Assembly: GCF_040744945.1 (NCBI RefSeq)
Contig: NZ_CP160453.1
Span: 5,580,001-5,644,000 of the forward strand
Source: Saccharothrix sp. HUAS TT1
GTDB lineage: Bacteria > Actinomycetota > Actinomycetes > Mycobacteriales > Pseudonocardiaceae
DNA: 64,000 nucleotides
Reading direction: 5' to 3'
Shown: one piece after another, positions 9,445-21,546 of the stretch
Position numbering within the stretch: position 1 is the first letter of the stretch
How the letters are laid out: every line of letters starts with the position of its first letter
Translations under genes and position numbers: made by a program
The notes under the pieces: generated by a model
What the model was told of the DNA's origin: nothing
Databases searched by the model: none
What the model saw: the letters and a program-made list of their open reading frames with translations, nothing else

Positions 9445-12248
9445 GGCTGTTGGCGGTCGTGCTCGTGCTGCTGGGTTCCCTGGCCGCCACCGCTCCGGTG
9501 ACCGCGGCGCCGGTCGAGACCGCCGAGCGGCCCGTGGTGTCCTACGACAAGCACTCGCTGATGGTCGACGGCGAGCGGGTCATGCTGTGGTCGGGGGAGT
9601 TCCACTACTTCCGGCTGCCCAGCCCCGAGCTGTGGCGCGACGTGCTGGAGAAGGTCCGGGCGGCCGGGTTCAGCGGCGTGTCGCTGTACTTCCACTGGGG
9701 CTACCACTCGCCCGCTCCGGGCGTCTACGACTTCACCGGCGTGCGGGACGTGGACCGGCTGCTGCGGCTGGCCGACGAGCTGGGCCTGCACGTGGTGGCC
9801 CGGCCCGGTCCGTACATCAACGCCGAGACCAGCGGCGGCGGCTTCCCGGCGTGGTTGAAGGCGGTGGACGGGCGGGCGCGGTCCAGCGACCCCGGCTACA
9901 CCGCGGCCTACCGCGACTGGCTCGGCCACCTCAACCCGATCATCGCGCGGCACCAGGTGTCGCGCGGCGGCTCGGTGATCGCCTACAACGTCGAGAACGA
10001 GTACGCCGTCAACGTCGACACCGCCTACATGCAGGACCTCCAGGACCAGGCCAGGGCTGCGGGCGTCGACGTGCCGATCGTGCACAACAACTGCTGCGGC
10101 GGGTACCTGGCCAACTGGTCGTCCGGCGAGGGCGCCGTGGAGATCCCCGGCGTCGACGACTACCCGCAGCTGTTCAACTGCCGCGAACCCGACGCGTGGG
10201 GCTCGGCCGAGGGCGTGACCCGGCGGCTGAACGACACCGCGCCGGTGTACGCCGCCGAGTACCAGGCGGGTGCGATCGACCTGAACGACGCCGGGTACGA
10301 CAAGTGCCGGCAGCTGACCGGCCCGGAGTACATGAAGGTGTTCTACAAGTCGAACGTCGTGGAGAGCGGCGCGACGATGTTCGGCTACTACATGGCCTTC
10401 GGCGGCACGTCCTGGGGCTGGCTGCCGCAGCCCAACGACGTCTACACCTCCTACGACTACGGCGCGGCGATCACCGAGTCGCGGCAGCTCACCGCCAAGT
10501 ACGACGAGTTCAAGCGCCAGGGCTACTTCATGACGACCGTGGCGCCGATCCTGAAGACCGACGCCGCCACCGCGCCGACCCCCGCCGACCCGGCGGTGCG
10601 CACGGCGGCGCGGTCCAACCCGGACACCGGCACCCAGTTCGTCCTGGTGCGGCACGCCGACCGGCGCACCGACACCGACGTGTCCACCACCCTGGACTGG
10701 GCCACCCCGGACGGCAGCTACCGGGTGCCCGTGCGGGTCGACGGCCGGGACGCCAAGATCCTGGTCGCCGGGTACGACCTGGGCGGCCAGCGGCTGGTGT
10801 GGTCGAACTCGGAGGTCCTGACCCACGTCGACGTGTCCGGTCGCGACGTGGCCGTGCTCTACGGCCGTGACGGCGAGCAGGGCTCGACCGTGCTGCGGTA
10901 CGACTCGGCCCCGACCGTGGAGGTGCTCGACGGCCAGGTGCGCAGCAGCTACGACAACGGCGACCTGCGGCTGGACTACACCCACACCGGCCTGGCCCGG
11001 GTGCTGGTCTCCGGCGGCGGGCGCAAGCCGGTGCTGCTCATGCTCGGCACCGACGAGACCGCCGCGCGGTTCTGGAAGCTGGACACCGGGGCCGGGCCCG
11101 TCCTGGTCCTCGGCACCGCGCTGGCCAGGGGAGCCGAGGTCGAGGGCGACCGGCTGCGGCTGCGCGCCGACACCGACCGCGCGGGTGAGGTGGAGGTGTT
11201 CGCGCCGGTCCGGCACCTGTCGGTCGGCGGGCGCCCGGTGTCCGCGCGCCGCACGTCCAGCGGTTCCCTGGTCGGCTCGCTGCCCGGTCCGCGGCAGGTG
11301 CGCCTGCCCGAGCTGACCGGGTGGCGGTACCGCGCCGAGGCGCCCGGCATGGCCGAGTCCGGCTGGACCACCGCGGACCGGACCACCACCGCGAGCCCGA
11401 TCAAGCCCAGGACGCTGCCGGTGCTCTACTCCGACGAGTACGGCCACCACAACGGCAACGTCTGGTACCGCGGCCGGTTCACCGCCACCGGCGCCGAGAA
11501 GGCGATCAGCGTCAACGCCGTCACCGGCAGGCGCGGCGTCTACCTGGTCTGGCTCAACGGCCGCTACCTCGGCTCGGCCGCGGGCGGCACGCAGGCCGAC
11601 TCCGAACCGGTCAACCCCGACCCGGGCCGCGGCGACTTCGCCGTGCCCGAGGGGCTGCTGGCCGGCGGTGAGCGGGCCACGCTGACCGTGCTGGTCGAGA
11701 ACATGGGCCACAACGACGACTGGACCGCCGACGACGTGCGCCACAAGCAGCCGCGCGGCCTGTTCGGGGTGGTGGTCGAGGGCTCCACCGCGCCGATCTC
11801 GTGGCAGATCCGCGGTTCGCGGGCGATGGACGGCGAACGCGGCCCGATGAACACCGGCGGCCTGTACGGCGAGCGCGCCGGCTGGCACCTGCCCGGCTCC
11901 GGAACCTGGCACCGCCCGCCGGGCGCGCTGGCGCCGGGGGTGTCCTGGTACCGCACCACCTTCGACCTGGACCTGCCGCGCGGGCACGACGTCTCGCTCG
12001 GCCTGCGGTTCGACGACACCACCGACCGCGACTACCGGGTGCTGATCTTCGTCAACGGCTGGAACATGGGCCAGTACCTCAACGCCGCCGGCCCGCAGCG
12101 CGAGTTCGTGCTGCCCACCGGCGTGCTGCGCGACCACAACACGCTCACCTTCGCCGTGATCTCCACCGGTGCGGCGCAGGGTGATCCGGGACCGGTGCGC
12201 CTGGTGACCCTAGGCAACCACCGGACCGGTGCTGCCACGGGCCGTTAG
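9441..12248 (+). CDS. Secreted GH35 beta-galactosidase
   Basis: A 935-residue GH35 protein with an N-terminal Sec signal peptide (~20-25 residues, hydrophobic LLAVVLVLLGSL, then TAAPV). The catalytic barrel contains the NVENEYAV motif (residues ~184-190, acid/base Glu) and AEYQAGA around Glu273, the probable nucleophile. C-terminal beta-rich jelly-roll domains follow, as in large bacterial and plant GH35 enzymes. Predicted role: removal of terminal galactose from xyloglucan side chains outside the cell before import. The last 39 bp overlap the 3' end of the convergent LacI gene. Confidence 0.9.
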   Translation: MRLLAVVLVLLGSLAATAPVTAAPVETAERPVVSYDKHSLMVDGERVMLWSGEFHYFRLPSPELWRDVLEKVRAAGFSGVSLYFHWGYHSPAPGVYDFTGVRDVDRLLRLADELGLHVVARPGPYINAETSGGGFPAWLKAVDGRARSSDPGYTAAYRDWLGHLNPIIARHQVSRGGSVIAYNVENEYAVNVDTAYMQDLQDQARAAGVDVPIVHNNCCGGYLANWSSGEGAVEIPGVDDYPQLFNCREPDAWGSAEGVTRRLNDTAPVYAAEYQAGAIDLNDAGYDKCRQLTGPEYMKVFYKSNVVESGATMFGYYMAFGGTSWGWLPQPNDVYTSYDYGAAITESRQLTAKYDEFKRQGYFMTTVAPILKTDAATAPTPADPAVRTAARSNPDTGTQFVLVRHADRRTDTDVSTTLDWATPDGSYRVPVRVDGRDAKILVAGYDLGGQRLVWSNSEVLTHVDVSGRDVAVLYGRDGEQGSTVLRYDSAPTVEVLDGQVRSSYDNGDLRLDYTHTGLARVLVSGGGRKPVLLMLGTDETAARFWKLDTGAGPVLVLGTALARGAEVEGDRLRLRADTDRAGEVEVFAPVRHLSVGGRPVSARRTSSGSLVGSLPGPRQVRLPELTGWRYRAEAPGMAESGWTTADRTTTASPIKPRTLPVLYSDEYGHHNGNVWYRGRFTATGAEKAISVNAVTGRRGVYLVWLNGRYLGSAAGGTQADSEPVNPDPGRGDFAVPEGLLAGGERATLTVLVENMGHNDDWTADDVRHKQPRGLFGVVVEGSTAPISWQIRGSRAMDGERGPMNTGGLYGERAGWHLPGSGTWHRPPGALAPGVSWYRTTFDLDLPRGHDVSLGLRFDDTTDRDYRVLIFVNGWNMGQYLNAAGPQREFVLPTGVLRDHNTLTFAVISTGAAQGDPGPVRLVTLGNHRTGAATGR

Positions 12249-13217
12249 CCGCGGCGGCAGCAGCCGGACCTCCGGGTCGGCCGGGCCGTCGAGCCGGCGC
12301 ATCGCCAGCTCGACGGCCAGCCGGCCGATCTCGACGGCGGGCAGGTCGACCGAGGACAGCGGCACGGCCTGCGCCCGCGCCACGTCCGGCGGGCAGACCG
12401 CGAGCACCGAGATGTCGCGCGGCACCCGCCTGCCCCGGCGGGCCAGCTCGGACAGCAGCGGGCCGAGGATCGCCTCGTTGTGCACGACCAGGCCGGTGAC
12501 CGGGCCGCGACCGGCCAGCAGCCCGTCCAGGCACTCGCGCAGCCCGTCGTAGGTGGGCACGCAGGCCAGCGCGGTGGCCTCGATCCCGCGGCTCGCGGCG
12601 GTCTTGCGGAACCCGCCGAGGAACCGGCCCGCGTAGCTCGTGCCGCGCTCGTAGACGGCGGGGGAGGGACCGATGAGGGCGATGTCGCGGTGACCGAGGT
12701 CGGCGAGGTGGGTGACGCACTCCGACCCGGCGGCGGTGAAGTCCAGGTCCACGCAGGTCAGGTCGCGGGTGTCGTCCGGCACGCCGATCAGCACCGCCGG
12801 CCGGGCCAGCTCGCGCAGCACCGGCACGCGCGGCTCGGCGGCCTCGACGTCCATCACGATGATCGCGTCGGCCAGCGCGGAGGCCGCGACCCGGTGCAGG
12901 CCCTCCGCGCCCTCGTCGGCGGTCAGCAGCAGCACGTCGTGGTCGTGGGTGCGGGCCTCGGCGACGGTGGCGGTGACGAACTGCATGACCACCGGGACGT
13001 TCAGGTCGGCGCGCAGCGGGACGACCAGGGCCAGCACGTTGGTGCGGCTGCTCGCCAGCGCCCGCGCGCCCGCGTTGGGCCGGTAGCCGAGCTTGCGGAT
13101 GCTGTGGTGCACCCGGCGCCTGGTCGTCTCCGAGATCGAGCGCTTCCCGGACAGCACGTAGGACACGGTGCTGGGCGAAACCCCGGCCGCTCGGGCGACG
13201 TCGGCGATGGTGACCAT
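12210..13217 (-). CDS. LacI-family transcriptional repressor of the sugar operon
   Basis: A 335-residue regulator. The HTH (residues ~2-22, TIADVARAAGVSPSTVSYVL) with its hinge helix (RPNAGARALAS) is followed by a periplasmic-binding-protein-like sensor domain. The start at 13217 puts MVTIADVA at the N-terminus as in the family; a longer reading would run through the operator. It is convergent with GH35, overlapping it by 39 bp. Operators at 13296-13307 and 13409-13420 suggest autoregulation, and the identical core at 1127 links it to the GH3-GH35 operon. The inducer is probably an oligosaccharide derived from the imported substrate. Confidence 0.9.
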   Translation of the reverse strand: MVTIADVARAAGVSPSTVSYVLSGKRSISETTRRRVHHSIRKLGYRPNAGARALASSRTNVLALVVPLRADLNVPVVMQFVTATVAEARTHDHDVLLLTADEGAEGLHRVAASALADAIIVMDVEAAEPRVPVLRELARPAVLIGVPDDTRDLTCVDLDFTAAGSECVTHLADLGHRDIALIGPSPAVYERGTSYAGRFLGGFRKTAASRGIEATALACVPTYDGLRECLDGLLAGRGPVTGLVVHNEAILGPLLSELARRGRRVPRDISVLAVCPPDVARAQAVPLSSVDLPAVEIGRLAVELAMRRLDGPADPEVRLLPPRLTARGSTGPVVA

Positions 13218-14381: not shown

Positions 14382-15233
14382 ATGGCGACCGAGCGGTTGC
14401 GGCTGGAGGACGGCACGGAGCTGAACGTGGTGCGCAGCGGCCCGCCCGACGCCGAGCTGACCGTGGTGCTCGCCCACGGCTACGCGCTGGACCACCGCAG
14501 CTGGCACCGGGTGGTGGCGGCGCTGCCCGCGTCCGCGCGGGTGATCGCCTACGACCACCGCGGCCACGGAGCGTCCTCGCCCGCCGACAAGGGGACCGCG
14601 ACGATCGAACAGCTCGGCGACGACCTCGGCGAGCTGGTCGAGCGGCTGGCGCCCGAGGGTCGGGTCGTCGTCGCGGGCCACTCGATGGGCGGCATGGCCG
14701 CGATGGCGATGGCCGAGCGCCGTCCCCGCCTCTACCGGCAGCGGGTGGCGGGCATCGTCTTCGTGTCGACCGCCGCGACGGACCTGGGGGAGACGTCGTT
14801 GGCCTGGCCCAAGGCGCTGGGCAAGCTCGTCCGCGAGCTGGAGCGCGCCTTCGGCCCGCTGGTGCGCGCGGTCCGGGAGAGGATCGAGCCCGCGAAGACG
14901 GCCGGGCTGCGCTGGTGGCTGTTCGGCGACGAGCCGCGCCAGGAGGACGTGGACCTCACCGCGGACATGGTGTGGTCGCACTGGCCGGAGACCATCGCGT
15001 TGTTCCGGCCCGCGGTGGACCGGTACGACCGGGAGGCGGCGCTCACCGTCGCGGGGGAGCGGCCGGTGATCGCCATCGTCGGCGACGAGGACCGGCTGGT
15101 GCGCGAGTCCGACGCCGAGGCGCTGGCGGCGGCGGTCGGCGGCGAGTCGGCGGTGGTGGAGAACGCGGGCCACATGCTGCCGCTGGAAGCGCCGGCCGAG
15201 GTGGCCGCGCGGATCGTGGAACTCGGCGCCTGA
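14382..15233 (+). CDS. Alpha/beta-hydrolase fold protein
   Basis: A 283-residue hydrolase. The nucleophile elbow is GHSMGG, the oxyanion region HGYALDHRSWHRV. The acid lies after strand 6 (IVGDEDRLV) and the catalytic His is near the C-terminus (AGHMLPLEAP). This layout is shared by haloperoxidase-like, esterase and lactonase enzymes, so the substrate cannot be named. The start at 14382 follows a GGAAGGGG ribosome site; a longer reading from 14343 has no such signal. A strong hairpin ends the transcript. Confidence 0.88.
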   Translation: MATERLRLEDGTELNVVRSGPPDAELTVVLAHGYALDHRSWHRVVAALPASARVIAYDHRGHGASSPADKGTATIEQLGDDLGELVERLAPEGRVVVAGHSMGGMAAMAMAERRPRLYRQRVAGIVFVSTAATDLGETSLAWPKALGKLVRELERAFGPLVRAVRERIEPAKTAGLRWWLFGDEPRQEDVDLTADMVWSHWPETIALFRPAVDRYDREAALTVAGERPVIAIVGDEDRLVRESDAEALAAAVGGESAVVENAGHMLPLEAPAEVAARIVELGA

Positions 15234-15237
15234 CGCG

Positions 15238-15272
15238 CTCGTGCCCGGCGGTGGTGGTCCGCCGGGCACGAG
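15238..15272. terminator. Bidirectional terminator hairpin
   Basis: Perfect 14-bp stem (15238-15251 with 15259-15272) and a 7-nt loop, placed between two convergent genes. It can serve both strands. Confidence 0.85.
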
Positions 15273-15317
15273 TCCGGGTGTCGATCCGGTGGCGCTCCTG
15301 GAACGCCGACCCCGGCG

Positions 15318-15758
15318 TCAGGCCGGTGTCGTGCGGTAGCTCTCGGTGTAGTAGTCGCCGAGGCGTCGGCGGTAGTCGTCGGCGTCGAAGGTGTCCGCGT
15401 CGTACTCCGGCGCGTGCCGCACCTGGTCCTGCGTGCGGTCGACGTGCACCTTCTTGGCGTCGTGGTCGACCCTCGCCACGGCGCCGACCGGCAGCACGAC
15501 CTTCAGCTGCGACAGCCACGTGCCCGCGTCGACCAGCAGGCAGTCGGCGGGCACGCGCGCGTTGGCCTCGTCGACCTCGCCGATCGGGCCGTCGAGCGCT
15601 TCGACCCCGTACCCGAGCAGGCCGATGTCCGGGCGCTCCTGGCGCTGCGCCGGGTCGGTGGCCTCGCCCGCCTCGGGGGAGCTGGTGTCGCGCCGGTCGA
15701 AGACCTCGGCGACGTTGCGCCAGACCCACGGGGCGAAGGGGATGGGGAGCGGGTGCAT
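15318..15758 (-). CDS. PRC-barrel-like protein
   Basis: About 146 residues, cytoplasmic, acidic. The middle part (GYGVEALDGPIGEVDEA, then DCLLVDAG and KVVLPVGAVARVDHDAKKVHV) has the PRC-barrel pattern found in stress-linked or photosynthetic proteins. The C-terminus is Asp/Tyr-rich (YDADTFDADDYRRRLGDYY). The ATG at 15758 has GAGGAGG 6 nt upstream; an in-frame ATG 75 bp earlier has none. It follows the NUDIX gene after 140 bp, so it may be a separate unit or the tail of that operon. Function unknown. Confidence 0.75.
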   Translation of the reverse strand: MHPLPIPFAPWVWRNVAEVFDRRDTSSPEAGEATDPAQRQERPDIGLLGYGVEALDGPIGEVDEANARVPADCLLVDAGTWLSQLKVVLPVGAVARVDHDAKKVHVDRTQDQVRHAPEYDADTFDADDYRRRLGDYYTESYRTTPA

Positions 15759-15898
15759 CTCGGCCTCCTCGGTCGGGTGGACGACCAGGGGGTACCCGTT
15801 CGCACCGGGCAAAATCATGTCTGTGGACTCGATTACTTCAGTGTTGACCAAAACCAGTCCACTCGACGGGTGAAGTCGTGCGACAGGACCAAAACCGC

Positions 15899-16534
15899 TC
15901 AGGACGTCCAGCGCCAGACCGACGGCGGCCGGCCGCCCTTGGGTAGGGCGGCGGCGTGCTGGGCAGTGCGTTCGAGGCCGGGCACGCGTTCCATCGTGCG
16001 GCCGAGGTTGGCGGGGTAGGGGCGGTCGCCGGTCAGGGACTCGGTGACGTCGAGGGCTTGCGCGGTGGTGAACTCGCGGCCGAGGAGCCCTGCGGTGAAC
16101 GCGGTGTCGCGCCACAGGTGGCCGGCCAGGAGGGGGCGGCAGTCGTGGACGATGCGGTCGTGGTCGAAGGCCAGCGGTGGCACGTCGGCCAGCGGTGTCC
16201 AGGTGGGGCCGTCGCCGGTCAACCCGGCGGGGTCGACGGTGGCCCACAGGGCGATGGACAGGGTCGGGCCTCGCGGGTCGCGGGACGGTTCGTCGAACGT
16301 GGTGAGCTGGCCGGTGGCGGTGATGGCGGTCCCCGGCAGGCCGAGCTTGCCGGTGACGGCGCGGTGGGCGGCGTCGCGGAGGCGTTCGCCCTTGCCGAGC
16401 AGGACGCCGGGCAGGGCGAGCCGGCCTGCGAACGGGTCGAGGGCGCGGGGTGCGATGCCGAGCAGGACGGTGCGGGCGGTCGGGTCGAAGCGCAGGGCCA
16501 GCACGTCCACCGACACGGGGGTCGACTCGATCAT
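15899..16534 (-). CDS. NUDIX hydrolase-like protein
   Basis: A 211-residue protein related to NUDIX proteins with a C-terminal winged-helix extension. The core reads RLALPGVLLGKGERLRDAAHRAVTGKLGL. This corresponds to the NUDIX box but lacks the canonical REUXEE glutamates, with H-R-A-V-T-G-K in that position, so pyrophosphatase activity is doubtful. Such variants in actinomycetes sometimes act as sensors or repressors for nucleotide-sugar or NAD metabolites. It starts 19 bp after the PurA-like stop with GGGAG upstream, as the last gene of the pseudokinase-VWA-PurA operon. Confidence 0.8.
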   Translation of the reverse strand: MIESTPVSVDVLALRFDPTARTVLLGIAPRALDPFAGRLALPGVLLGKGERLRDAAHRAVTGKLGLPGTAITATGQLTTFDEPSRDPRGPTLSIALWATVDPAGLTGDGPTWTPLADVPPLAFDHDRIVHDCRPLLAGHLWRDTAFTAGLLGREFTTAQALDVTESLTGDRPYPANLGRTMERVPGLERTAQHAAALPKGGRPPSVWRWTS

Positions 16535-16553
16535 GGTGTGATTCTCCCGCACG

Positions 16554-17741
16554 TCAGCGGTGGGCGGGCGTCCGCACGGTGTAGTCCTCCCGGTCGGGTC
16601 CGTTGCCGGTGATGAGGACCGGGACGTCGAGGTGTTCTTCGAGCCAGGTGACGGGGTCGGGCAGGTCGGTGAGCGGTGCGTCGTGGGCGGTGGCGACTTT
16701 GAGGTCGTGGGCGTCGAGGTGGGTGACGGCGAGGCCGTCGACGCCGCCGGAGACGTCGATGGCGTAGCGGAGGAGGGTGGCGTCGAGGTGTCCGGTGCGC
16801 CAGGCGCCCTGGTAGTGGCCGGTGTCGTTGTGGTGTTCGGGGAAGCGGGTGAGGAGGGTGGGGTCTTCGGTGGGGAGGGGGCCCGCGCCGTGGCGGGTCT
16901 GGTAGGTGCGGGTGACGCCGATGACGGTGGCGTGGCGGTGGCCGAGGAGGGCGCGGGCGTTGTGGGGGGTGACGGTGGACCAGGTGGTGTGGGGGTGGAA
17001 GCCGTGGTGCTGGTCGAGGAGGACGCCTTGGGCGCCTTCGAAGACGAGGTCGCCCTGGTCGGCGAGGCGGCCGACTTCGTCGCCGGTGGTGGTGCGGACG
17101 GCTGCGGCGAAGTCGCGGTAGAGGTGGACGAGTTCGTCCACTGAGGTGGTGGGGCCGGTGAGGGGTTCGTAGAAGCGGGCGAGGGTGTCGAGCTTGGTGC
17201 GGAGGGTGGTGGGGTTGGCGCAGTCGCCGACGGTGGGTGGTGGTCCGGGTGTGCCGAGGACTTCTTGGTCCTCGACGGTGTCGCCGGTGGTGGCGTGGCG
17301 TTGGGTGAGGAGGCTGTACCAGGTGGTTTCGCCGATGCCCTTGCCGCAGCTGCCGTGGCGGGCGTGGCCGCGGGCGTCTTCGCGGGCTCGGTTGGCGGCG
17401 ACGTGGATGGGGGTGGTGAGGAGTGCGTCGGCGTCGATGGTGAGGAGTCGGAGCGGGTCGGGGATGCCGAGTTGTTCGAGTTGGCGGGTTTCGGTGGCGA
17501 GGGCGATGGGTTCGACGAGGACGTGGTGGGAGAGGTGGGTGGGGGTGCCGGTGAGGGTGCCGGAGCCGAATTGGCTGAAGGTGTGGTGGCGGTGGTGGGT
17601 GACGACGTTGTGGGCGGCTTGGGCGCCGCCGTTGAAGCGGATGACGGCGGTGGTGGGGCGGTGGTGGCAGAGTGCGTCCACCACCGCCCCTTTGCCTTCG
17701 TCGCCGAAGCCGAGGCCGATGACGATGGTGTGGTTGTTCAT
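16554..17741 (-). CDS. Divergent adenylosuccinate-synthetase paralogue (PurA-like)
   Basis: 395 residues, about 30-35 shorter than housekeeping PurA (the canonical enzyme joins IMP and aspartate using GTP). It keeps the GDEGKG phosphate loop with the catalytic Asp at residue 14, a conserved His at 44, and TYQTRHGAGPLPTE, matching the TTRVGAGPFPTE region of PurA. Other sites are altered: GGNNAGHT has become GGAQAAHN, GRGIGP has become GKGIGETTW, and the aspartate-binding TTTGRxRR loop is replaced by QGAWRTG. It is very His-rich. Its start overlaps the VWA stop by one base. The retained Asp argues against the phage PurZ type. It probably ligates a different nucleotide or acid, but that is inference. 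Confidence 0.85.
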   Translation of the reverse strand: MNNHTIVIGLGFGDEGKGAVVDALCHHRPTTAVIRFNGGAQAAHNVVTHHRHHTFSQFGSGTLTGTPTHLSHHVLVEPIALATETRQLEQLGIPDPLRLLTIDADALLTTPIHVAANRAREDARGHARHGSCGKGIGETTWYSLLTQRHATTGDTVEDQEVLGTPGPPPTVGDCANPTTLRTKLDTLARFYEPLTGPTTSVDELVHLYRDFAAAVRTTTGDEVGRLADQGDLVFEGAQGVLLDQHHGFHPHTTWSTVTPHNARALLGHRHATVIGVTRTYQTRHGAGPLPTEDPTLLTRFPEHHNDTGHYQGAWRTGHLDATLLRYAIDVSGGVDGLAVTHLDAHDLKVATAHDAPLTDLPDPVTWLEEHLDVPVLITGNGPDREDYTVRTPAHR

Positions 17742-18721
17742 CAGGTGAGGGTGACGGTGTCGGGGCCGTCGAGTTGTGGGGGAGCGGGGTTGGTGGGGGT
17801 GGTGTTGGCGCCGACGTGGACGAGGGCTTTGCCGACGGCTTCGCTCTCGGTGGTGGAGCCGATCTCGGCGAGGTCGACCATGGCTTGGTCGAGGTCTACG
17901 ACGCGTTCTTCCAGGCCGATGGTGGCGGCGATGAGTTCGCAGACGGCGCCGGGGTCGTCGAGTTTGAGGAAGTGCTGGCCGAGGAGGTCGCGCCAGTGGT
18001 CGGCGATCTGGGGGTCGTTGTAGTAGGAGGACTGGTTGGGCAGGACGAAGTAGACGTGCCACTTGCGTTCGAGTTCGCGGTAGATGGAGGCGGGGTCGAT
18101 GTCCTGCTTGACGTCGTCGCCGATGATGCGGCGGATGTGGCGGGCTTCGAGGCGTGGTTTGTTGAGTTCGTCGCCGATGAGGAAGAGGTAGCCCTTGCGG
18201 CCGCGCTTCTGCCAGGCGTCGGTGGTGACGTGGCGGGCGATGAAGTAGGCGGCGAGTTCGTAGGATTCGCTCTTCTGGCCGCCGCCGTTGCCTTCGAGGA
18301 AGATGGTGCGGAGTTGTTCGTCCATGCGGTTGTCGGATTCGAACTGGCCGATCTGGAGGGGGACGCGGTCGCTGTCGGCGTCGCCGATGCCGCCGAAGAG
18401 GAGTTGGGGGTCGGTGAGGTAGCCCTTGCGCTGGAGGAGGCCGTGGAGCTTGCCGAGTTTGCGCTGCATGATCTGGGGGACGCGGCCCATGGAGCCGGTG
18501 ACGTCGAAGAGGATGGCGATGGGGGTGGAGTCGGCGTGGTCGGGTGAGTCGCGGCATTCGCGGGTGGTGACGTTCTTGGGGTCGAGGGTGGGGTCTGCTT
18601 TCCAGTGGGTGGCGGGGCGTGAGCGCATGGCGGCGGTGTAGCCGAAGTCGTCGATGCCCTTGGCGGCGCGGAAGGTCTTGGCCGCTGCGTAGGCGTTGTC
18701 GTCCCATTTGCCGTGTCCCAT
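17741..18721 (-). CDS. VWA-domain protein with MIDAS-like DxTGS motif
   Basis: A 326-residue cytoplasmic protein without signal peptide or membrane segment. Residues ~68-250 form a von Willebrand A domain with the metal site DVTGSM (Asp73, Thr75, Ser77) and later IGD and LIGDE segments. The ~60-residue N-terminus (WDDNAYAAAKTFRAAKGIDDFGY) is conserved-looking but unassigned. The C-terminal ~80 residues are helical and end in a Pro/Thr-rich tail. It begins one base after the pseudokinase gene and overlaps the PurA-like gene. VWA proteins beside kinase-like proteins are known in TerY-type stress systems, but this protein is not an obvious TerY. Confidence 0.85.
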   Translation of the reverse strand: MGHGKWDDNAYAAAKTFRAAKGIDDFGYTAAMRSRPATHWKADPTLDPKNVTTRECRDSPDHADSTPIAILFDVTGSMGRVPQIMQRKLGKLHGLLQRKGYLTDPQLLFGGIGDADSDRVPLQIGQFESDNRMDEQLRTIFLEGNGGGQKSESYELAAYFIARHVTTDAWQKRGRKGYLFLIGDELNKPRLEARHIRRIIGDDVKQDIDPASIYRELERKWHVYFVLPNQSSYYNDPQIADHWRDLLGQHFLKLDDPGAVCELIAATIGLEERVVDLDQAMVDLAEIGSTTESEAVGKALVHVGANTTPTNPAPPQLDGPDTVTLT

Positions 18722-18722
18722 G

Positions 18723-19727
18723 TCAGGCTCCTGTCTGTGGTAGGGCGAAGGGTCGGTAGGTGCGTTCGCCGTAGAGGTGTTCGAGCAGGTCGTCGTATTC
18801 GGTGAGGAGGTCGACGGCGTCGGGTCGTCGGTGGGGGTCGTCTTGGGTGCAGCCGCGGGCGAATCGGCGTTGGGCGGTTTCGTCGGGGGCGAGGAGGTCG
18901 AGCATGAGGGTGTGGGCCATGTGGATGTCGGTGGCGGTGGTGGCGGGTTGTCCTTTGTGGATTTCGGGTGGGTAGTGGGTGGTGTGGTCGGTGGCGAGTG
19001 GTCGTTCGCCGGTGGTGACGGCGAAGGTCCAGCCGGCGAGGACGATGCCGTGGTGGGCGGGGTGGATGAGGACGTTGTCGGTGGTGATGGCGCCGTGGAC
19101 GAGGCCGATCTCGTGGGCGCCGGCGATGGCGCGGAGGAGTCGGCGGTGCATCCAGGCGTAGTCGCGGCCGTCGAGGCCGTGGGGGTGGGCGGTTTTGACG
19201 TCGGTGAGGGTGGCGAAGCCGTCGGTGAGGGGGGTGAGGACGGTGAAGGCGTGGGTGCCGCGGGGTGTGTTGCCGGAGGTGTCGTGGAGGTGGGGGTAGT
19301 AGGGGCGTAGCCAGGGGTGGTGGTGGGTGAGGTGGTCGAGTCGGCGGAGGGCGTCCCACTCGGCGTGCAGGAGTGGGTTGAGGGTGGGGTTGCGGGCGAC
19401 TTTGACGATGTGGGGTCCGTCGGTGAGGTAGAGGTTGGTGACGCTGCCGATGGCGTGTCGTCGGGTGAGGCGGTAGGTGGCGCGGGTGGTGCGGAGTTCG
19501 GTGGTGGTGCTGGTGTGCTGCCAGTCGTGGTGCAGGCGGGTGAGTCGGGCTGAGGCGGTGTGGGCCCTGGTGTCGTCGGGGGCGGTGCGGTCGGGGTGCA
19601 GGGCGGTGGCGAGTCGGCGGTGGAGGCGTTGGGCGTCTTTGCGGCGGGTGGGGTCGAAGGGGCCGAACAGGTCGGCTGCGGTGTCCGCCTGTTCGACCTG
19701 GGTGAGGGCTTCGTCCCTGGTGAACAT
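18723..19727 (-). CDS. J-domain/protein pseudokinase fusion
   Basis: A 334-residue, His/Thr-rich protein. The first ~70 residues resemble a J-domain with HPD at 44-46 (TALHPDRTA), the motif that stimulates Hsp70. Residues ~85-320 follow the protein-kinase fold: ATP-site Lys109 (IVKVA), helix-C Glu123, APE-like PPEI (253-256) and the helix-F Asp267. The catalytic loop HRD is HGA (211-213) with only Asn218 kept, and DFG is replaced by LAGW. It therefore lacks both catalytic aspartates and should be a pseudokinase or adaptor. First gene of the operon; the ATG has no ribosome site and follows a TATAGA box, which suggests a leaderless mRNA. Confidence 0.82.
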   Translation of the reverse strand: MFTRDEALTQVEQADTAADLFGPFDPTRRKDAQRLHRRLATALHPDRTAPDDTRAHTASARLTRLHHDWQHTSTTTELRTTRATYRLTRRHAIGSVTNLYLTDGPHIVKVARNPTLNPLLHAEWDALRRLDHLTHHHPWLRPYYPHLHDTSGNTPRGTHAFTVLTPLTDGFATLTDVKTAHPHGLDGRDYAWMHRRLLRAIAGAHEIGLVHGAITTDNVLIHPAHHGIVLAGWTFAVTTGERPLATDHTTHYPPEIHKGQPATTATDIHMAHTLMLDLLAPDETAQRRFARGCTQDDPHRRPDAVDLLTEYDDLLEHLYGERTYRPFALPQTGA

Positions 19728-19751
19728 AGTTTGAGTCTATACGACTCAAAC
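19728..19751 (-). promoter_or_regulatory. Leaderless promoter overlapping a perfect inverted repeat
   Basis: Two 9-bp arms, GTTTGAGTC (19729-19737) and GACTCAAAC (19743-19751), are separated by 5 bp and lie directly upstream of the pseudokinase ATG. On the minus strand the spacer and right arm spell TATAGACT, a good -10 box about 7 bp before the ATG, so transcription would begin at or next to the start codon. A protein bound to the repeat would block the promoter. The repressor is not identifiable from this window. Confidence 0.65.
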
Positions 19752-19816
19752 CGGTGATCCGACTGTGTCGCCGGTCACCTTCCCCGTTGTCGATCAACCG
19801 GGTACAGTCGTCGGCG

Positions 19817-19903
19817 ATGTTGTACTTCCTGTGATCATCGGTCCCGCGCCCGCGTAGAGCTCCGCTCCGCGAGCGCACTTCTCCACACCCTCCGCACCGA
19901 TGA
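19817..19903 (+). promoter_or_regulatory. Possible leader peptide and attenuator of the ABC-F gene
   Basis: A 5-codon reading frame MLYFL (19817-19834) is followed directly by an 8-bp arm TCATCGGT (19835-19842), which pairs with ACCGATGA (19896-19903) across a GC-rich inner region. The far arm covers an alternative ATG of the ABC-F gene. Antibiotic-resistance ABC-F genes are often controlled by ribosome stalling on short leaders, and this arrangement fits. No clear ribosome site precedes the mini-ORF, so it is tentative. Confidence 0.4.
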
Positions 19904-19938
19904 CTCGGCGGTGTCCCCGTCGGGAACAGGAGTCTGCC

Positions 19939-21546
19939 TTGCGCACCGCGCAACTAGCCCTGCACAACGTCACCAAGAGCTATCACGGCCAGGTCGTGCT
20001 CGACGCGGTCTCGCTGACCGTCAAGCCCGGCGAGAAGGTCGGCGTGATCGGCGACAACGGTTCCGGCAAGTCGACCCTGCTCGGGGTGGTCGCGGGCCGG
20101 GTGGCCGCCGACAACGGCGAGGTCACCGTGGTCGCGCCCGGCGGGATCGGGTACCTGGCCCAGACGCTGGACCTGCCGCCGCGCGCGACCGTGGCCGACG
20201 CCGTCGACCTCGCGCTGGCCGACCTGCGCGAGCTGGAGGCCCGGATGCGCCTGGCCGAGGCCGAGCTGGCGGGTCCGCGCGCCGATCCGGAGCACTACGC
20301 GTCACTGGTGGAGCAGTACGAGGCGAGAGGGGGTTACGAGGCCGACACGAGGGTCGACGTCGCCCTGAACGGGTTGGGGCTGCCAGGGTTGGACCGGCGG
20401 CGCGCGCTGGGCACGCTGTCCGGCGGCGAGCGGTCGCGGCTGGCCCTGGCGGCCACGCTGGCGTCGTCGCCGGAGCTGCTGCTGCTGGACGAGCCGACCA
20501 ACGACCTGGACGACCGGGCGGTGGCCTGGTTGGAGCAGCACCTGATGCGGCACCGCGGGACGGTCGTGGCGATCACCCACGACCGGGTGTTCCTGGAGCG
20601 GGTGACCTCGACCATCGTGGAGGTCGAGGCCGGTGGGGTGGCGCGCTTCGGCGACGGCTACGGGGGTTACCTGGCGGCCAAGGCGGCGTTGCGGGCGCGG
20701 CGGTCGCGCGAGCACGGCGAGTGGCGGGCGGAGGTGGCGCGCCAACGTCGCCTGCTGTCGGCGCACGCGCGGGCGTTGGGCGAGATCCCGCGCAAGCTGC
20801 CGCTGGCGGTGTTCGCGGCCGGCCCGTTCCGCGCCCGCGGTCGTGGGCACGGCGCGATGAGCCGGGTGCGCAACGCCAAGGAGCGGTTGGCGCGGCTGAC
20901 CGTGAACCCGGTGGCGCCGCCGCCGGAACCGCTGCGGTTCGCCGCGCGGCTCGGCGGTGGCGGCGCGGACGCGCAGTGGGTGGCCGTGCTGTCGGACGTG
21001 CGGGTCGGCGACCGGTTGCGGTTGGCGCGGCTGGCCGTGCGGCCCGGCGAGCGGCTGCTGGTGACCGGCCCCAACGGCGCGGGCAAGACCACGCTGCTGC
21101 GGGTGCTGGGCGGTGAGCTGCGGCCGGACTCGGGGGTGGTCGACGTGCCGGTCCGGGTGGGCCACCTGCGGCAGGAGGAGGCTGCGTGGCCGCCGGGGCT
21201 GACCCTGCTGCAGGCGTTCGCGCAGGGGTTGCCGGGACACCCGGACGAGCACGTGGACGCGTTGCTGTCGCTGGGCCTGTTCGAGCGCCGCGACCTGCGG
21301 GCGCGGATCGGCGAGCTGTCCTACGGGCAGCGGCGGCGGGCCGAGCTGGCCCGGCTGGTGACCAGGCCGGTGGACCTGCTGCTGCTGGACGAGCCGACCA
21401 ACCACCTGTCGCCGGGCCTGGTGGAGGACCTGGACCGGGCGCTGGCCGACTACCCGGGCGCGCTGGTCGTGGTGACGCACGACCGCCGCACGCGGGCCGG
21501 GTTCGCCGGGGAGCGCCTGCACCTGGAGGACGGCGAGGTGGTGTGA
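19939..21546 (+). CDS. ABC-F subfamily ATPase (ribosome-associated)
   Basis: A 535-residue soluble protein with two ATP-binding cassettes and no membrane domain. Cassette 1: Walker A GDNGSGKST, signature LSGGE, Walker B LLLLDEPTNDLDD. Cassette 2: Walker A GPNGAGKTT, signature LSYGQ, Walker B LLLLDEPTNHLS. The charged Arg-rich linker (~225-320) corresponds to the P-site tRNA-interaction motif region. ABC-F proteins act on the ribosome, as translation factors or by displacing antibiotics. The TTG at 19939 is chosen because CAGGAG lies 6 nt upstream; ATG 19900 is an alternative. It diverges from the pseudokinase operon. Confidence 0.9.
   Translation: MRTAQLALHNVTKSYHGQVVLDAVSLTVKPGEKVGVIGDNGSGKSTLLGVVAGRVAADNGEVTVVAPGGIGYLAQTLDLPPRATVADAVDLALADLRELEARMRLAEAELAGPRADPEHYASLVEQYEARGGYEADTRVDVALNGLGLPGLDRRRALGTLSGGERSRLALAATLASSPELLLLDEPTNDLDDRAVAWLEQHLMRHRGTVVAITHDRVFLERVTSTIVEVEAGGVARFGDGYGGYLAAKAALRARRSREHGEWRAEVARQRRLLSAHARALGEIPRKLPLAVFAAGPFRARGRGHGAMSRVRNAKERLARLTVNPVAPPPEPLRFAARLGGGGADAQWVAVLSDVRVGDRLRLARLAVRPGERLLVTGPNGAGKTTLLRVLGGELRPDSGVVDVPVRVGHLRQEEAAWPPGLTLLQAFAQGLPGHPDEHVDALLSLGLFERRDLRARIGELSYGQRRRAELARLVTRPVDLLLLDEPTNHLSPGLVEDLDRALADYPGALVVVTHDRRTRAGFAGERLHLEDGEVV

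Follow-up and report, generated by a model that had tools for sequence, protein, structure and literature searches.

The subject of this study is a 64,000-nucleotide stretch of the 8.7 Mb genome of Saccharothrix sp. HUAS TT1 (contig NZ_CP160453.1, positions 5,580,001 to 5,644,000; the whole stretch is called the window here) and, within its positions 15318..19751, a four-gene operon on the minus strand. The operon encodes, in this order, a J-domain/pseudokinase fusion, a VWA-fold protein, an adenylosuccinate synthetase (AdSS)-like enzyme and a Nudix protein with a winged helix-turn-helix domain (Nudix-wHTH) (Table 1). The genes are closely coupled, with 1-bp gaps at the pseudokinase/VWA and AdSS-like/Nudix junctions and a TGATG overlap between the VWA and AdSS-like genes, in agreement with the open reading frames (ORFs) and junctions of an initial annotation that had been made from the sequence alone; the Nudix protein starts at a GTG, or alternatively at an ATG at 16534. 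Missing from that account was a perfect palindrome (GTTTGAGTCGTATAGACTCAAAC), which stops 1 bp short of the first ATG and covers part of the likely -10 region of a promoter read by eye. An Rfam scan of positions 15000-20000 gave 0 matches, indicating no RNA element at this site. The best reading of the operon is that it represents a bacterial copy of a module widespread in large phages, which consists of the VWA and AdSS-like genes and usually the J-domain pseudokinase.

Table 1. Positions of the operon, its palindrome and the adjoining ORF in the window
Feature	Position	Strand	Basis or remark
Perfect 23-bp palindrome, GTTTGAGT-N7-ACTCAAAC	19729..19751	.	Predicted operator of the Nudix-wHTH regulator
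J-domain (~residues 1-72, HPD 44-46) and kinase-fold pseudokinase (~76-319), 334 aa	18723..19727	-	J and kinase profile matches, AlphaFold, Foldseek, residue census
VWA-fold protein, 326 aa; MIDAS-type DVTGS (73-77) and D184	17741..18721	-	AlphaFold, PDB fold match, residue census, phrog_2971
AdSS-like enzyme, 395 aa; D14/H44/Q238 kept, aspartate loop changed to YQGAWR	16554..17741	-	PF00709, alignments, census
NrtR/AraR-family Nudix-winged-helix transcription factor, 217 aa, dead Nudix box; predicted repressor of the operon	15899..16552	-	Profile matches
PRC-barrel-like ORF, outside the conserved system	15318..15818	-	In 5/80 related loci

Kept and lost residues in the first three proteins

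The family profile of the first protein matched solved J domains (2ys8, 3.6e-6; DnaJ 1bqz, 1.5e-5) and also protein kinases (best 1.5e-7), and the HPD motif was found within the J fold. Both catalytic aspartates of the kinase are gone from the window protein, as had been stated at the outset, with HGA in place of HRD and AGW in place of DFG. When the AlphaFold model (mean predicted local distance difference test, pLDDT, 91.6) was compared with the Protein Data Bank (PDB) using Foldseek, it matched the kinase-homology domain of STK40 (5l2q, 4.3e-10) and a human DnaJ-PKA chimera (4wb7, 6.4e-10, 379 columns); the root-mean-square deviation of the latter (23.9) indicates that the match holds domain by domain and not for one common arrangement. 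The order of domains recalls this oncogenic human DNAJB1-PRKACA fusion.

A residue census was made of relatives of the first three proteins, with pseudokinase, VWA and AdSS matches shorter than 150 residues (bacterial) or 120 residues (viral) excluded. Among 118 pseudokinases the HRD aspartate was kept in 3 and the DFG aspartate in 46, nearly all of them viral, and the pair that an active Ser/Thr kinase would need was present in none. The HPD motif was kept in 55/55 bacterial, 2/2 phage-record and 43/61 viral-contig sequences. Because the catalytic aspartates are never both retained and the HPD motif mostly is, the first protein is a pseudokinase that most likely still calls on Hsp70; DnaK is encoded in the genome.

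The VWA protein had no Pfam, NCBIfam or PADLOC match, and its family profile gave 0 matches to PDB sequences. Its AlphaFold model (pLDDT 85.1) matched integrin A/I domains in the PDB (best 5.8e-7), and the DVTGS sequence of its metal-ion-dependent adhesion site (MIDAS) was kept in 86/86 bacterial sequences and the second aspartate, D184, in 171/171 sequences. The DxS/TxS motif, second aspartate and A-domain fold expected of a VWA protein are all present, the fold being that of the model where sequence profiles miss the protein, and the initial VWA assignment stands. Among phage protein families it matched phrog_2971 (function label: unknown) at 5.6e-75.

The third protein belongs to PF00709 (5.2e-64) and missed the curated cut-offs for PurA (NF002223, 162.7 of 402 bits; TIGR00184, 124.8 of 395.55) and for PurZ (NF038379, 41.5 of 300), so that by these cut-offs it is neither. 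It shares with PurA the fold, the GDEGKG loop and the catalytic Asp, His and Gln. Mapping by hand from an alignment with E. coli PurA (1ade numbering) showed that Asp13, His41, Gln224, Thr239 and Asp333 are kept, and that Asn38 is replaced by Gln, Thr129 by Cys, Val273 by His, Thr300-Thr301 by Tyr-Gln, Arg303 by Ala and Lys331 by His, with one residue of the Arg304-305 stretch deleted. Across 173 sequences Asp13, His41 and Gln224 showed gaps in 2, 1 and 1 and no other letter. Unlike in PurA, His stands at position 273 in 84/85 bacterial (1 gap), 4/4 phage and 84/84 viral sequences and Gln at 301 in 84/85 (1 gap), 4/4 and 78/84, while Arg303 is kept in 1/85, 0/4 and 6/84 (7/173 in total). The aspartate-binding Thr300/Thr301/Arg303 loop of PurA is not present in this family, and because the replacements span bacterial, phage and viral sequences we regard its change as a family trait; the divergent PurA paralogue with altered substrate loops that had been proposed is what these positions describe.

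Arg303 of PurA is reported to contact the aspartate as well as the 2'-oxygen of IMP, and a loop of PurZ to contact aspartate (PMC8342488). The retention of the catalytic residues and the loss of this loop suggest a GTP-driven enzyme acting on a 6-oxopurine with an acceptor other than free aspartate. A backup enzyme converting IMP to adenylosuccinate, with chaperone helpers and no special pathway, would also keep Asp13, His41, Gln224 and the GDxGKG loop, and GTP-site Asp333 is kept in nearly all sequences shown. However, the aspartate loop has been rewritten and its new form is largely conserved from phages to Actinomycetota, and the genome encodes a full-length PurA (599.4 bits) with ordinary residues at these positions, making a plain purine paralogue very unlikely.

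A Nudix-winged-helix regulator and its predicted operator

In the Nudix box of the window protein RAVTGKLG stands where a REVEEETG-type box is expected, so the intact Gx5Ex7REUxEExGU box of a Nudix hydrolase is lacking; among 26 aligned Nudix proteins REVEEETG was found only in the viral loci L091 and L093. The protein extends into a C-terminal winged helix. On its own it matched AraR (5bs6, 6.7e-7) and NrtR (3gz5, 3e-5) and had no PF21906 match in the Pfam scan, and a profile of 26 family members matched the same structures at 1.1e-41 (positions 6-207 of 207) and 1.1e-36 (4-205), respectively. Both features that were looked for in an NrtR/AraR transcription factor, a Nudix-like and winged-helix match over the whole length and a palindrome at the promoter, were found. 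The initial annotation had seen a NUDIX-like protein missing key glutamates; the box is indeed dead, but the protein is an NrtR/AraR-family transcription factor, not an enzyme, and likely regulates the operon.

The palindrome was present in 81/82 promoters of the first gene (80 loci, one Rhodococcus plasmid and the window) with at most 2 mismatches at 15 fixed positions; at up to 3 mismatches it occurred in 29/16400 shuffled windows and 11/1620 random windows of the same loci. At the exceptional locus, L046, the site lies further upstream and is followed (9812-9980) by no more than a C-terminal remnant of the pseudokinase, the gene having seemingly been lost by internal deletion. Of 81 sites, 38 have a symmetric G-C pair and 41 a T-A pair at position 5, and two break the pairing; by this count the half-sites covary. 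In the genome the palindrome is unique at one mismatch or fewer, and the 3 sites found at up to 2 mismatches do not exceed the reversed-pattern control (4).

These features recall M. smegmatis NrtR, S. oneidensis NrtR and B. thetaiotaomicron AraR, which likewise join a dead Nudix domain to a C-terminal winged helix and bind a 23-bp GTTT....-N7-....AAAC palindrome at an autoregulated promoter (PMC6800001, PMC4666351). The M. smegmatis site, GTTTTCGA-N7-TCGAAAAC, has the same 23-bp layout as the palindrome found here, and its repressor is released from DNA by ADP-ribose (PMC6800001). Unlike in those systems, the bacterial genes under the putative control of the present protein are neither NAD nor sugar genes, the half-site bases differ and the NCBIfam equivalog cut-off is missed. 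Given the position of the palindrome at the promoter, its M. smegmatis-like layout and its uniqueness in the genome, the Nudix-wHTH protein is predicted to be a local autorepressor of the operon. In Nocardia loci lacking the pseudokinase it is the VWA gene that the palindrome precedes; there it follows a TTGAC and covers a TAnACT-like hexamer (by eye), which is a repressor-like position. The corresponding regulator gene is divergent, beside the cassette, on Agrobacterium vitis, Acetobacter and Rhodovulum plasmids. Between the AdSS-like and Nudix genes of a Nocardia brasiliensis strain (L045:12670-13878) lie about 2 kb with a transposase-like ORF (by eye).

The window palindrome, which includes TTGAGT-N7-ACTCAA, contains the HAIR core, and it could be an HspR site with the J-domain protein as a heat-shock cochaperone. 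In Nocardia and Rhodococcus, however, the arms change together to the GTTTTAGT/ACTAAAAC type, which is not HAIR, while the Nudix factor stays, and the genome has no second exact core site. An HspR/HAIR operon was rejected on this covariation and has next to no chance of being correct.

Distribution among bacteria and phages

The bacterial census covered the best 80 of 371 loci. The order pseudokinase-VWA-AdSS-Nudix factor was found in 50/80 and VWA-AdSS-Nudix factor, in Nocardia, in 28/80; the remaining two, both on short contig pieces, showed VWA-AdSS only, so that the VWA and AdSS-like genes were together in 80/80. A search for conserved co-occurrence had been proposed with the initial annotation, and the recurrence of the VWA-AdSS-Nudix factor set in 78/80 loci, with the pseudokinase in front in 50, argues that the gene set is not due to chance. 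The VWA gene was detected in 27/150 genomes of the family and 2/396 genomes of the phylum, the window's own included, and on 21 plasmid records; the nearest relatives found were in Saccharothrix.

The viral census combined 39 loci, the best 80 of 325 and a further 8 loci, and merging of near-copies at 90% AdSS identity left 84 non-redundant loci. The VWA gene was present in 81 of these, in 81/81 on the AdSS strand, and the pseudokinase in 61. The three AdSS loci without a VWA gene (L169, L213 and L215) begin 990, 3 and 24 bases into the stretch, and little can be read from its absence there. Named phage records with the VWA gene numbered 208 (189 Mycobacterium, 10 Rhizobium, 6 Vibrio and 3 other). 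Mycobacteriophages LRRHood and Tonenili have the order kinase-VWA-PurA-like, with a small ORF between the last two genes in LRRHood.

A tree of VWA proteins was built from 110 rows (24 of 86 bacterial rows, the window and all 85 phage or viral rows). Bacterial rows fell in five places among the phage rows, through five label changes that were all forced by well-supported branches, and the main actinobacterial clade had support of 100/100. Transfer of the module from phage to bacteria is likely on this topology, short of proven because the bacterial sampling is narrower than the viral, the root is not fixed and one "viral" row (V_L181) is nearly equal to a Variovorax plasmid copy (B_L100).

Since phages carry the module, a pathway for modified DNA has to be weighed, in which the AdSS-like enzyme would supply phage DNA with a modified purine deoxynucleotide, in the way PurZ serves 2-aminoadenine DNA. 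The AdSS-like protein matches phrog_1211, labelled 2-aminooxy adenylosuccinate synthetase (1.7e-68), and a cluster comprising 4 viral loci has, upstream, a gene resembling deoxynucleotide monophosphate kinase (PF21448, 2.1e-8, in the single member that was scanned). Against this, PurZ is like the present protein a phage-borne PurA paralogue, but the score of 41.5 lies far from its cut-off of 300 bits, and the family profile matches PurA at 1e-64 versus 1.5e-11 and 7.4e-7 for the PurZ-type structures 6fm1, presumably a PurZ, and 7odx. Asp13 is kept wherever the position is present, whereas S-2L PurZ has S23 near the amino group of dGMP (PMC8342488), the correspondence of these positions being our own reading. 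Bacterial copies, moreover, lie in chromosomes and plasmids. The AdSS-like protein was rejected as a PurZ on both score and residues, and we consider the modified-DNA pathway improbable. The same 2-aminooxy label appears in some C1 mycobacteriophage records, though the family is far from PurZ by profile.

Candidate function and competing explanations

Taken together, the data are best read as a phage module captured by bacteria, placed under an NAD/ADP-ribose-type repressor, and making or transferring a modified purine nucleotide with the help of chaperones. We give this reading a tentative probability of about 45%; the existence of the module, its coupling and the type of its regulator are well supported, and its trigger, chemistry and physiological role are inferred from them. 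The initial annotation had suggested a modified-nucleotide signalling or stress/phage-response module. Its modified-nucleotide chemistry and phage connection remain good readings, but phages carry the module and are not merely its targets, so that a phage response is one option only.

The step held with most confidence is the switch: a Nudix-wHTH autorepressor on the promoter would let go on binding a small nucleotide. ADP-ribose or some other molecule derived from NAD would be the most likely ligand, and NAD breakdown, for instance during infection or stress, would turn the operon on. Second in confidence is a reaction of the AdSS-like enzyme in which the 6-oxo group of a hypoxanthine-type nucleotide would be activated with GTP and the nucleotide passed to an amine other than free aspartate. 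Third, the VWA protein would bind a partner or acceptor through its metal site. The pseudokinase may then be a scaffold whose J domain recruits DnaK, with the modified nucleotide made, or put on its target, in a chaperone-assisted complex. In phages the module would probably sustain the purine/NAD nucleotide economy, or else the infection machinery, during NAD cleavage by the host, and bacteria would reuse it under an NAD-type switch of their own.

Genes of NAD metabolism neighbour the module in several viral loci. Of the 84, 9 carry NAMPT, 6 NrtR and 3 an NMNAT-like gene, in the orders NrtR-NAMPT-VWA-AdSS-pseudokinase-NMNAT-like (3 loci), NrtR-NAMPT-VWA-AdSS-pseudokinase (2), NAMPT-VWA-AdSS (2), NrtR-VWA-NAMPT-AdSS-pseudokinase (1) and VWA-NAMPT-AdSS (1). 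On the 512-kb contig of L091, for example, NrtR (PF21906, 7.2e-23), NAMPT (564.4 bits, cut-off 405), VWA, AdSS-like, pseudokinase and NMNAT-like (PF01467, 5e-6) genes follow one another in this order; its NMNAT-like protein (11467-12498) has about 200 N-terminal residues matching no family. NADAR (PF08719, 4.2e-20 to 2.6e-31) was present in 4/84 viral loci: directly upstream of the pseudokinase in L157 (7343-8071), one ORF further upstream in L155 (6768-7322), and downstream of the module in L164 and L193, which are both also NAMPT loci. In the VWA tree, L155 and L157 are set apart from the NAMPT loci and belong to the viral group that is closest to the actinobacterial clade.

Several observations weigh against this interpretation. 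NadV (NAMPT) is common in large phages, the published figures being 22% for medium-sized and 33% for jumbo phages (PMC9503650). In the reverse test, made on the best 80 of at least 574 NAMPT loci, 3/80 carried the module in the stretch examined and 77/80 did not, which weakens a general NAD link, and 75/84 viral module loci have no NAMPT in the stretch examined. As 7/9 NAMPT-bearing module loci belong to one clade of the VWA tree (support 94/84), no more than two or three independent events may lie behind the association. None of the bacterial loci gave a match to the NADAR query. The window regulator scored 21.6 of 400 bits against NF050029, the NCBIfam model of ADP-ribose-responsive NrtR (viral L091, 178; A. 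vitis, 135.8), for which reason it is filed as NrtR/AraR family only; because the NrtR family also includes arabinose sensors (PMC4666351), its ligand may differ from ADP-ribose. The pseudokinase is missing from 29/80 bacterial loci, all Nocardia, and reduced to a remnant in one more, so it is not essential, and at the Thr301/Arg303 loop positions 6/84 viral sequences lack the Gln and 6 have the Arg. The NAD link would come down to perhaps three or four phage events together with the NrtR/AraR-type regulator of the bacterial copies, and on balance an NAD trigger of the operon is still somewhat favoured.

A more specific and rather unlikely version is a new conjugation, in which the AdSS-like enzyme would join a GTP-activated hypoxanthine nucleotide, through C6, to an amine on a protein or NAD-derived molecule that is presented by the VWA protein and kept accessible by the J-pseudokinase and DnaK. 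Large phages would thereby shield the cell or reprogram it while NAD-directed immunity is under way, and the system would have been domesticated by actinobacteria behind an ADP-ribose-type switch.

The module could instead be a bacterial antiphage defence, triggered by NAD or ADP-ribose, whose phage copies are captured or decoy genes. Its patchy presence in the family and phylum and its plasmid copies are what such a system might show; the kinase domain has weak PADLOC matches (MkoA, 6.9e-11; mad6, 1.7e-6), and conflict systems pairing Nudix transcription factors with vWA proteins have been conceived (PMC9503650, section 3.8). None of the four operon proteins, however, resembles a nuclease, NADase or pore, no PADLOC match was found outside the kinase, and in the VWA tree the bacterial copies are interspersed among phage copies at five places, although bacterial sampling was narrower than viral. 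We consider a defence role unlikely.

The conflict systems of that section are ARG-centred and use Nudix or WYL factors; they share with the present operon a negatively acting Nudix factor, predicted there to read ADP-ribose, and a vWA protein, predicted there to be a peptide-binding chaperone (PMC9503650). The AdSS-like enzyme and pseudokinase set the present operon apart, the words adenylosuccinate, PurA and pseudokinase having 0 occurrences in that paper. In this genome ARG-type genes (PF03747) lie in four places, none inside the window and all hundreds of kb to Mb from the operon, and an ARG-centred system was rejected on these positions. Phage NAD salvage operons of the NrtR-NAMPT(-NMNAT) type have both NrtR and NAMPT next to the module in six viral loci, whereas most NAMPT loci lacked it, as the reverse test showed.

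A kinase/VWA signalling pair of the Ter type had also been invoked in the initial annotation, and would make the operon a phosphorylation switch coupled to a nucleoside-like metabolite. As in the TerY-P triad, the VWA gene adjoins one for a kinase-fold protein. Upstream of the VWA-AdSS pair of Rhizobium phage RHph_TM2_3B (L098:929-3262) lie genes for a HAD hydrolase, for a PRTase_3 protein (PF15610, 9.4e-46) and for a NUDIX protein, and the first two, which we take to be parts of Ter-type metabolite synthesis, would fit such a unit. The claim was not borne out: both kinase aspartates are kept in 0/118 relatives, the VWA protein lacks any Pfam, NCBIfam or PADLOC match, no PP2C match came from the five proteins of the scan, to which this search was confined, and TerD is absent from the genome, a control search having found it in 2/14 genomes. 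The operon also has a J domain where the triad has a zinc ribbon or OB fold (PMC11090510). The negative TerD search lowered odds that were already very small, and a TerY-P/Ter system was rejected as exceedingly improbable.

Among the matches listed in the open-access literature, no paper described this gene set, in line with the initial statement that no such system was known; the ARG-centred systems come nearest in concept. One announcement of a C1 mycobacteriophage gives the kinase and PurA-like gene as annotations only (PMC9476963), and two phage papers mention adenylosuccinate synthase in their available text without this set (PMC7139368, PMC10892097). As each known system tested for the whole set fails a defining feature, the module is, judged by its gene content, a new kind of system whose single parts belong to known folds. 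The cassette occurs in hundreds of phage records and many bacteria, and no function assigned to it was found; in the records examined its members carry the labels hypothetical protein, kinase or PurA-like adenylosuccinate synthetase. Since a predicted switch and a defined palindrome accompany the bacterial copies, the ligand, the target and the product of the enzyme are directly testable. If the NAD link is true, a nucleotide-modifying arm would be added to the NAD-centred contest between phages and bacteria, and if the AdSS-like enzyme truly uses another amine, the reach of the PurA fold would extend beyond PurA and PurZ.

The PRC-barrel-like ORF downstream of the operon, which the initial annotation had named, gave no Pfam, NCBIfam or PADLOC match at E ≤1. 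It is present in 5/80 related bacterial loci, in two of them as the next gene after the Nudix gene, and was dropped as an operon member on this count. Lineage-specific flanking genes are conserved in up to 23/80 bacterial loci. Downstream of the cassette on the Agrobacterium vitis plasmid (L096:8271-12666) lies a cluster encoding an AAA ATPase, DUF5682 and DUF4132, which may be a separate conflict system.

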